Positions 51,158 through 56,329 of a DNA stretch of 64,000 nt are shown one piece after another (position 1 is the stretch's first letter; each line of letters begins with the position of its first letter). Under the pieces are notes generated by a model, which worked only from the letters and a program-made list of their open reading frames with translations, ran no database searches and had not been told where the DNA came from. Source of the DNA: Blepharisma japonicum. Taxonomy: Eukaryota; Ciliophora; Heterotrichea; Heterotrichida; Blepharismidae. The DNA is taken from positions 496,001-560,000 of the forward strand of contig CATKHK010000013.1 of assembly GCA_949751835.1 (NCBI GenBank), written 5' to 3'. The position numbers and the translations under genes are program-made.

Positions 51158-52645
51158 ATGTCGAAGAATTGGGTTTTTGCTGTTGCGCTTATTTTTTTGA
51201 TAGCAAAATGTTCGGCTGCCAACCCAGGAATGAAAATTTCTCGAAGTCTTGAAGACGCTTCTTCATTAGTAAGAGATTTGATACCTATTGCAGCAGAGTA
51301 TATATCAGCAGAAAACTTAGGCAGTCTCAATTTCAACGGAGTTGATAATGGCATAAATGTAGCTGTCACTGCTAAAAATATTGCCCTTACAAATTCCACA
51401 ATTAATCCTTCCAATGTGAGTGTTATTATTGTGCAGCCAAACTGGTTTAATATCACTTTTTATAATTTCACAGGGGATTTGTCATTTCAGTACTCTGAAT
51501 ACAACACAAGTAAAAATATTAACAAAACAGGAACTGCTGATGCATTTTTCACTGGCGTTTTAATAATGGATGCAGAAATTCAAAACGATGAAGGAGTTCC
51601 TCAGCTTTATACTGACGTTATTACTCTCAGCATATATGAAATTACGTTTCAAGACTTGAGCTTCTCTGCAAACTTGACGACGCAGTTTACAACTCGTATT
51701 ATCAATTTTTTACAGGCAAATACTGGGCTAGTTTTTCTTCAGGCATTTGAATCAAGAATAAATAGCTATACTCAGGGTCTCAACTGGTTCCCACAGGTGC
51801 CAGACTTGCCTATATATTTGAATAACTTGTGAATTGGAACACCAGTAATTAGCTATAATCCAGCATATTCATGCATCAATAATTATGTTACTGCATGGTA
51901 TAATGGAACATTTGTTACACAAAATGATAACTCAGCTAAGATGCCTTCTATAGCTCCAGCTATTGCTATGCCAGATCGTTATACTAATCCTAACGGAGTC
52001 GGGTCATCCCAGGTAATGATTTCTCAATATATGCTTCAATCATATTATAATGCGATCACAACTAAATACGCATATCATTTCATTACAAAACTGCCTAATG
52101 GCTATCCTAATATATTAACTTCTACATCTGGGTATTATCCTGAGCTTTACCAAACATACGGTAATGTCCCTGTGAATCTAAACATTTCTACTGTAGGAGC
52201 TCCTATTGTTACAATAGTTCCAGAAATTGGTCTTTTGGTATCTGGGACAGTAGATGTCCAGATTTTGATTTATAATTCCATGCTCAACCAATGGTCATAT
52301 CCAGTCTATTTTAAAGCTAACTTATTATTTTTGGTGACTCTACAAGTGAAAAATGGAGTTGTTAAAGGATATGCCTACAACCAAAAAGTCACATCAATTT
52401 ACAGTGTAAACTCTATAATTGGCCCAATCAATACTTATAACCTAAGAATGCTGACAGCTGATCTTATGAAAAGTTTCATACAAAGCTACAATGGCGCTGT
52501 TTTCTTCCCAGTATTTACCCTTCCATACCCATCTGGTACGACGTTTGATAATATTCATTTACGAATGGAATCTGGATATATGGTGATAGATTATGATGCA
52601 AGTTTACCGCTTCCAGTATTTCAGCTTCAAGGACTAAATTGCTAA
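51158..52645 (+). CDS. BPI/LBP-family lipid-binding secreted protein
   Basis: 495 residues; TGA at 51830-51832 is Trp ('YLNNLWIGTPV'). Signal peptide 'MSKNWVFAVALIFLIAKCSA' is followed by 'NPGMKISRSLEDASSLVRDLIPIAAEYI', which fits the first helix of the BPI/LBP fold. Alternating amphipathic strands and N-glycosylation sites fill two ~200-residue halves; the end 'ESGYMVIDYDASL' corresponds to the conserved 'hxxgyxxlxtdf' terminus. The BPI family binds lipids or lipopolysaccharide; in a bacterivorous protist a role in handling bacterial lipids is plausible but inferred. Confidence 0.82.
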
Positions 52646-52725: not shown

Positions 52726-54450
52726 TTAAGAATGATTTGGCTCCTTATCAACAGCTACTGATACAATAACCGTGGTGTCATCTAGTTTCCCTCCAATGAA
52801 CCTTTTTCCTTTTTTTGAAGCATTTCTGGCAAAAGGCGACTTATATGACTTGTCCCATCCTTTTATTATAGCTTTTTCTACCAATGTGTGAGCTAAATTG
52901 TCAGCAAAATCTTGTGGGTCATCAAAAAATTCCAGCATACTTTCAGCGCTTTTTATTATATCTTCTTCATATAAATTGTCAAAAAGTCCATCCGTTCCTG
53001 CAATAATAATATCTCCTACTTTTAAAGGGATCATTTCAGTTTGGGCATCTAGTACTGAATCGTTCAAAGTATGATTTGTTCGTGATAACAAGTTTATAAG
53101 TCTGCCAAGCCCTTGTTCAATTAACTCTTGGAATTTGTTCGATTTAGGAAGATTTGAGAGCTGATAAGGGCAGTTAAAAGAATGCTGCTGCTCTGTTGAT
53201 CGATAGACCGAATATAAAGCCTTATTATTTTCTCGTGGTCTGAGCACCAAAAAGCTTGAATCTCCAAGACAAAAAGAATGAAGCATAGAGTCATAAAAAA
53301 TACACAAAAGCAGTGTACTACTGCCATATGAAGTCACCCTTCTATGTGCCTCAAGAGCAACTTGCTCAAGAAGATCACAATATTCTGAATCTTGTGAAAC
53401 AGTTTCTAGTAAAACATCTTCGCAATATCTTATGAGCTCTTTGGAAAACCTGCTTTCATCTAGCCCGTAGGAGCTTCATTCTCCAACACCATCTGCCAAC
53501 CCAAATGCTTGTAGTTCAAAGTTAATGAAATATGCATCAGCACTTCCTTGAGGATTTATTGGTGATGATTTTATTTTTGGCCTCGCACACATAGCTGCAC
53601 CAGTTATTAAAGCGACAGGAGCTTTTTTGTTTTTCCCTCTTATCACACCAAAGCCTCTTGGAGAGTCTAAATTTCCACTTAAGGTGCGAGCTAAAATTAG
53701 AGGAGATTGGCTACCTTCAGTGATGATTTGTTTAGAAAGCTCAGAGTCAATGACAGCATTGAAGGAACGGACACTCATAGATCTCGATAGCTTTTTGGCT
53801 TTGTCTTTGACTATTATGATATTGTTATAATTTCCCAGTATGTCTTGTGAAACAGCTAAATCTCCATCACAAACCCAGGAGCCGTCAACATTGAATTTTA
53901 CACAATACGTCCCTTCAGGCAGTTTTCGGTCCTCAACAACTGTAGAGATAAATTCTTTGAGGTATTTAGAGTATCTTAAATTTATTTTTTCTTTTCATGT
54001 AGGCTCAGTAAAATTTCCTATCATTTTCACATCTTTTCCTCCATGTCTTCATCTTATTAGTCTCTTATTATCAATCCCTTTAAGAAATGATAAGTCTTTC
54101 CTCACAAGTCATCCTCTAGCATATCTTTGTATGGTAATTGCATGCATTTTTCGAATTAATATCAATCGATTTATTACTGCATAAAACCTGAGCCTTTTTT
54201 TAGTTAGGAATATTCTGTAATTTCTGATGATAAAATTTGATGCATTTTTTCTTATCTCAAGAAGTTTATTTACTAATTCCTGTACAGGCATGCCAAAATT
54301 ATCATCAATTTGAGGTATAATTTCTAAAGATTTTACTTCTGGCTCTGATGATTTCAGCATATAAGTTAAGCCATTCCCATTGCAGTCTTCGTGGCAGATT
54401 ATTTTACAGTTCTGAGGGGATGTATGATTGCTTGTTTCTGTGTTTATCAT
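52726..54450 (-). CDS. IQ motif - AMPK-type glycogen-binding (CBM48) - PP2C phosphatase fusion
   Basis: 574 residues in one frame with TGA as Trp; the standard code cuts it into three ORFs and hides the middle domain. IQ motif at ~108-120 ('AITIQRYARGWLVRKDL'). AMPK beta-type glycogen-binding domain at ~135-215: 'HGGKDVKMIGNFTEPTWKEKI', 'LPEGTYCVKFNVDGSWVCDGD', 'LGNYNNIIIV', with the two ligand-stacking Trps conserved (one TGA, one TGG). PTC7/TARG-type PP2C from ~255 to the end: 'FGLADGVGEW', 'AGTDGLFDNL', 'GGKLDDTTVIVSVAV' supply the metal-binding aspartates. Predicted Mn/Mg-dependent Ser/Thr phosphatase targeted to glycogen and possibly tuned by calmodulin-like proteins (inference). Confidence 0.88.

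Positions 54451-55193: not shown

Positions 55194-56329
<1,136 letters not shown>

Follow-up and report, generated by a model that had tools for sequence, protein, structure and literature searches.

The question raised by this locus is whether one reading frame joins an IQ motif, a carbohydrate-binding module of the AMPK-β type (CBM48) and a PP2C phosphatase in a single chain, as a reading of the sequence without database searches had proposed, and, if so, what such a protein would do. The gene lies at 52726..54450 of the window (the whole 64,000-nucleotide stretch of DNA analyzed here) and is read on the minus strand, from 54450 to 52726, as 574 residues with UGA as Trp, the stop codon being included in the coordinates. 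The sequence-only reading had the single 574-residue frame right and was silent on the minus strand; the plus-strand reading of the same interval contains stops throughout and was rejected. From stop to stop the frame covers 587 codons, whereas the longest TAA/TAG-free frame in each of 20 mononucleotide shuffles of the window covered 131–215. A pattern scan for GTA..AG stretches of 15 or 16 nt found one in the gene, at codon 565, and NCBIfam gave no match to the protein (P0001). In Pfam, the adjoining gene (51158-52645, plus strand) carries an LBP/BPI/CETP C-terminal domain, and a C2H2 zinc-finger gene occupies 55194-55907 (minus strand).

Modules of the predicted protein

The N-terminal residues 1–57 (54280..54450, minus strand) are poorly conserved among the paralogs described below, with a Ka of 0.937 against paralog C25 over the 42 codons compared. 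The IQ motif follows at residues 104–119 (54094..54141, minus strand; core 107–117, IQRYARGWLVR) and scores 22.6 bits against PF00612, for which the cut-off is 20.3. Shuffling residues 1–140 a total of 10,000 times yielded 14 occurrences of the strict IQ pattern and 337 of the standard one. Residues I107, Q108, R112, G113, and R117 are invariant in five of five IQ-CBM proteins, and the Pfam IQ match is above the cut-off in sisters C76 and C40 and below it in C25 (18.0 bits). Further upstream, residues 74–84 (54199..54231, minus strand; IIRNYRIFLTK) form an incomplete IQ-like stretch that matches the loose pattern only and contains no Gln; IQ is present at this position in C25 and C76.

The profile search placed AMPK1_CBM (PF16561) at residues 131–217 (53800..54060, minus strand) with 64.7 bits against a cut-off of 26.8, close to the span of about 135–215 that had been suggested for the CBM48. 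The same module is matched in the PDB by AMPK β2 chains, from 8.3e-9, and by LSF1 (8j5d) at 6.3e-5. Four codons of the gene are UGA read as Trp (W114, W134, W152, and W325), and two of them, W134 and W152, fall inside the CBM. UGA and UGG interchange among the four fusion genes at these positions and at position 192, which bears out the proposal that UGA encodes conserved Trp residues of the module. A structure model of the IQ-CBM region built from one sequence reached a pLDDT of 41, which is low confidence.

AMPK contacts β-cyclodextrin through W100, W133, K126, N150, L146, and T148, among others (PMC9788615). The first five are all matched in the alignment, by W152, W192, K185, N209, and L205, respectively, and the T148 equivalent is Asn (N207). 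The W100, K126, and N150 equivalents are present in all five intact CBMs, including that of a relative that has no phosphatase domain (C103). The W133 equivalent is Trp in the window gene and C40, Met in both C25 and C76, and Leu in C103, and just two of the five, the window gene and C76, retain the L146 equivalent; since W133 is replaced in three of these proteins and only C76 among the sisters keeps L146, the sugar contacts vary across the family.

Beyond a linker (residues 218–298; 53557..53799, minus strand), residues 299–574 (52729..53556, minus strand) form a PTC7-like PP2C domain, defined by PDB 6ae9, the family profile and the table of conserved residues. The solved PP2C 6ae9, labeled Probable protein phosphatase 2C 1 in the PDB and belonging to a family that we take to be the one named PTC7, PPTC7, and PBCP, was the best PDB match, at 5.2e-20 with the protein and 5.5e-41 with the family profile. 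The Pfam models PP2C_2 (19.6 bits, cut-off 24) and SpoIIE (19.2 bits, cut-off 25) both stayed below their cut-offs in the window protein; among its sisters, PF00481 (cut-off 20.3) was above in C25 (22.3 bits) and below in C76 (17.9) and C40 (18.5). We assign the window gene to the PP2Cs because of the 6ae9 match, the family profile and the C25 score above the PF00481 cut-off. The proposed combination of an IQ motif, an AMPK-β-type CBM48 and a PTC7-like PP2C in one frame is therefore supported by Pfam and PDB matches together, with Pfam by itself recovering AMPK1_CBM and IQ and leaving PP2C_2 and SpoIIE sub-threshold. As a separate observation, PTC7-like PP2C matches occur in IMG/VR viral contigs at four loci (L067–L070), covering the PP2C part only, at 27–30% identity.

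A family of fusions and its decayed relatives

The genome searched comprises 45.2 Mb in 224 contigs, and the family is known from this one genome. AMPK1_CBM was found in at least 19 places, whose frames are three AMPK-β, two starch/glycogen-synthase-like proteins, six glycogen debranching enzymes, three short CBM48 proteins, four IQ-CBM48-PP2C fusions, and one IQ-CBM48 protein without a PP2C. Pfam was used to check all four fusions, C103, both synthases, a single frame each from the three AMPK-β and the six debranching enzymes, and two short proteins, the others being classified by eye. In the short proteins (L022, L023, and L028) a possible IQ and coiled coil come after the CBM48 as judged by eye; the IQ of L022 is below cut-off, and Pfam lists the CBM only for L023. 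The Blepharisma telomere repeat CCCTAACA (PMC9942806) was absent from eight contig-end stretches of 800–848 bases each. The use of UGA for Trp suggests that the cell is probably a ciliate.

Searching the genome with the window protein gave 17 matches, itself included. Three are further full-length IQ-CBM48-PP2C paralogs, each in a single frame: C25, C76, and C40, with 64%, 62%, and 46% identity, respectively. The rest are the PP2C-less C103, six other PP2C genes, an AMPK-β CBM on C18, and five pieces, of which C15 holds three and C44 two, that represent plain PTC7-like genes and one broken C15 fragment. This PP2C fragment (C15:120428), which has an internal TAA, was left out of the counts and the tree, and C103 was left out of the PP2C tree. 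The family as tallied therefore comprises four intact fusions, six genes with a decayed CBM, and one IQ-CBM protein without a PP2C. The last of these (C103; L019:1409-2671, plus strand) contains IQ repeats and has no PP2C in its own or nearby frames listed, and it may be an adaptor or a family member whose phosphatase has been lost. Over the whole genome PF00481 gave at least 122 matches; among the matches listed, the present family is represented only by its two C155 members. Judged from these comparisons, IQ-CBM48-PP2C is a family and not a lone fusion, which the sequence-only reading had missed. By the same comparisons the window gene is real, and because three full-length sister genes share the arrangement, so is the fusion.

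The six other PP2C genes (two on C155 and one each on C52, C34, C14, and C12) have, in one frame with the phosphatase, a CBM-related domain at the N-terminus. When this domain was aligned by hhalign with the intact CBMs (five rows, C103 included), the probability was 97.2 and the E-value 3.3e-11, compared with 18.7 and 0.0013 for three AMPK-β CBMs. AMPK1_CBM was detected in only one of five of these genes scanned at E up to 5, at a sub-threshold 15.8 bits, and the sixth had no match at E up to 0.1. None of the six has the strict IQ pattern within its first 140 residues, and one (C52) has the standard pattern there. A PP2C tree of 12 rows resolved three clades: the four intact fusions (support 99/98), the six genes with decayed modules (98/97), and the genome's two plain PTC7-like members (100/99). 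With the plain pair as outgroup, the simplest reading is that one fusion preceded the split and that the module then decayed in one branch. The tree of the IQ-CBM region settled neither the placement of C103 nor the root.

The M2 metal site and the proposed function

The residues noted in the PP2C domain are A304, at the position of PPM1A Glu37, and D305, D320, D397, D487, D491, D557, and D558. The metal-binding residues D305, D320, D487, D491, and D558 are present in each of the four intact fusions. The position immediately preceding D305, which corresponds to Glu37 and lies beside M2, is Ala in all four, whereas in eight other family members compared it is Glu (seven) or Asp (one), in line with the conservation of Glu/Asp at this position in most PP2C members (PMC5390078). 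One genome thus holds a natural experiment, with an intact-CBM clade that has Ala at the M2 side and a Glu-keeping clade with a decayed module. According to the same source, Glu37 and Asp38 of PP2Cα both reach M2 via water, and the D38A substitution loses M2 and lowers activity; Glu37 is solvent-exposed, and Asp38 is the more conserved of the two (PMC5390078). The probable effect of Ala at this site is a lower or retuned dependence on metal, with catalysis not abolished. Because the Glu37 equivalent is Ala, the Asp ligands are present, and Glu37 and Asp38 have these roles in PP2Cα, reduced or retuned PP2C activity is likely and loss of activity possible.

We consider it fairly probable that the window gene encodes a PTC7-like PP2C tethered by its CBM48 to glycogen or another α-glucan, with an IQ helix just upstream of the module, and thus a predicted Ser/Thr phosphatase tuned via calmodulin. 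In this mechanism, the CBM48 would dock the enzyme on glycogen, Ca2+/calmodulin binding to the IQ helix would alter the CBM or the phosphatase, and the PP2C domain would dephosphorylate Ser/Thr residues of glycogen-bound proteins, which might be the synthase-like enzymes, the debranching enzymes or AMPK; in the same genome, CBM48 is also found on the two synthase-like genes and on the debranching and AMPK-β genes. The main doubt in the mechanism is whether Ala at the M2 side would leave an active enzyme, since its presence at the Glu37 position in all four intact members could mean weak or no catalysis.

That doubt leads to the strongest competing explanation, a glycogen-bound pseudophosphatase or adaptor in which the altered M2 site leaves a weak PP2C and the protein serves as a calmodulin-responsive scaffold, as C103 presumably does. 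The split between Ala in every intact-CBM member and an acidic residue in all eight others argues for it, as do the existence of an IQ-CBM gene devoid of PP2C and the D38A phenotype of PP2Cα, given that Glu37 also touches M2 via water. The Asp ligands, however, are retained, including D305 as the equivalent of Asp38, the residue that has been replaced is the exposed and less conserved one of the pair, and the lowest Ka in the comparison of C25 with C76 (0.07) falls in the PP2C segment. On balance we regard a pseudophosphatase as unlikely, though as an alternative to be taken seriously.

Removal of phosphate from the glucan itself would be a different role, in which a PP2C-type glucan phosphatase stands in for laforin and reverses the action of glucan water dikinases. 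We know of no PP2C that acts on glucan. The genome contains four glucan water dikinase genes (L063, L064, L065, and L066), identified by PPDK_N matches and all with GWD1_pHisD, and the CBM would present the substrate. Because the closest pair of dual-specificity phosphatase (DSP) and CBM matches is on opposite strands, with 1296 bases between their starts (at least 96 DSP, at least 18 CBM20, and at least 19 CBM48 matches), no laforin- or SEX4-type CBM-DSP gene is seen among the matches listed, where a divergent or intron-split copy is possible. Laforin, however, is reported in three copies each in two other ciliates, Tetrahymena and Paramecium (PMC2714694), and the job could fall to a DSP that lacks a CBM. 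We consider this role improbable, and give an equally low probability to the broader proposal that a PP2C family specific to this lineage, bound to glycogen, gated by calmodulin and with a remodeled M2 site, took over the work of laforin, perhaps by dephosphorylating glycogen.

Carbohydrate modules also occur in other enzymes of this genome. A 1423-residue frame (L033:2719-6987, minus strand) has a starch-synthase GT5 domain, a C-terminal CBM48 and a long N-terminal part with no Pfam match at 0.001. Pfam identified a trehalose-phosphate-synthase-like (GT20) protein with an N-terminal CBM20 (L042:1474-3261, plus strand), and L039, L057, and L059 appear likewise by eye.

Substitution rates bear on whether the modules form one protein. 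Between C25 and C76, the closest pair, Ka is 0.123 overall and Ks about 2.0, with synonymous sites near saturation; Ka ranges from 0.07 to 0.15 across IQ, CBM, linker, and PP2C and is 0.58 at the N-terminus, so purifying selection between these two sequences is clear. When the window gene was compared with C40, its most distant sister, Ka was 0.45 in the CBM, 0.46 in the PP2C, 0.68 in the IQ part (Ks 1.16), and 0.886 in the linker (Ks 1.85), with Ks saturated or 1.2–1.9 across segments; this linker value suggests that constraint on the linker is weak between distant members, and the same grading applies to the IQ part. Weak linker constraint against C40 is what would favor two neighboring genes or a gene-prediction artefact, a reading that we reject as highly improbable because the linker is open in all four fusion genes and has a Ka of 0.148 against a Ks of 1.68 in the closest pair, and against which six further genes also place a CBM-related domain before the PP2C in one frame.

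Relation to known glycogen-directed phosphatases

The window gene shares with the PTC7-like PP2C 6ae9 a common core with DGVG, GDS, TDGxxDN, and GGKxDD motifs, and differs from it by the added N-terminal IQ and CBM48 and by Ala in place of the usual Glu/Asp beside M2. With AMPK β it has in common the CBM48 and its W100, W133, K126, L146, and N150 equivalents, but here the module sits in one chain with a phosphatase and AMPKBI is not listed by Pfam, whereas the genome's own AMPK β (L029) has AMPKBI.

Laforin, SEX4, and LSF1 likewise combine a carbohydrate module with a phosphatase, in their case a dual-specificity one, in one chain; the expected target of the window protein, as predicted from its domains, is protein Ser/Thr rather than glucan. 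The SEX4 module was later moved from CBM21 to CBM48, which agrees with the family given by the sequence-only reading. PMC2714694 gives CBM21 for it, and the phosphatase of laforin and SEX4 as dual-specificity, whereas the window gene encodes a PP2C with no DSP match in Pfam. The SnRK1 β subunit carries a starch-binding domain and the PP2Cs are separate (PMC4102169). Fusion of a PP2C to a carbohydrate module was not found in the open-access literature searched, preprints and most subscription journals being outside this scope; the earlier statement that no IQ-CBM48-PP2C arrangement is known agrees with this result. That interpretation is partly supported overall, in its architecture, its UGA-encoded Trp residues in the CBM and its lack of literature precedent, and departs from the cited source in the detail of the SEX4 module.

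Among known systems, PP1 glycogen-targeting subunits serve glycogen-targeted dephosphorylation, and phosphorylase kinase has calcium input via calmodulin. Those systems use separate subunits, CBM21, and PP1 or a kinase, whereas the window gene has one chain with CBM48 and PP2C and no CBM21 match in Pfam; a CBM21 profile search of the genome gave no matches, as did the control genomes. Animals divide glycogen docking, calcium input and dephosphorylation among PP1, the subunits that target it, and calmodulin. If the proposed function is true, a single chain would dock on glycogen, receive calcium input and dephosphorylate Ser/Thr, and this cell could thereby tie calcium signals to glycogen turnover.
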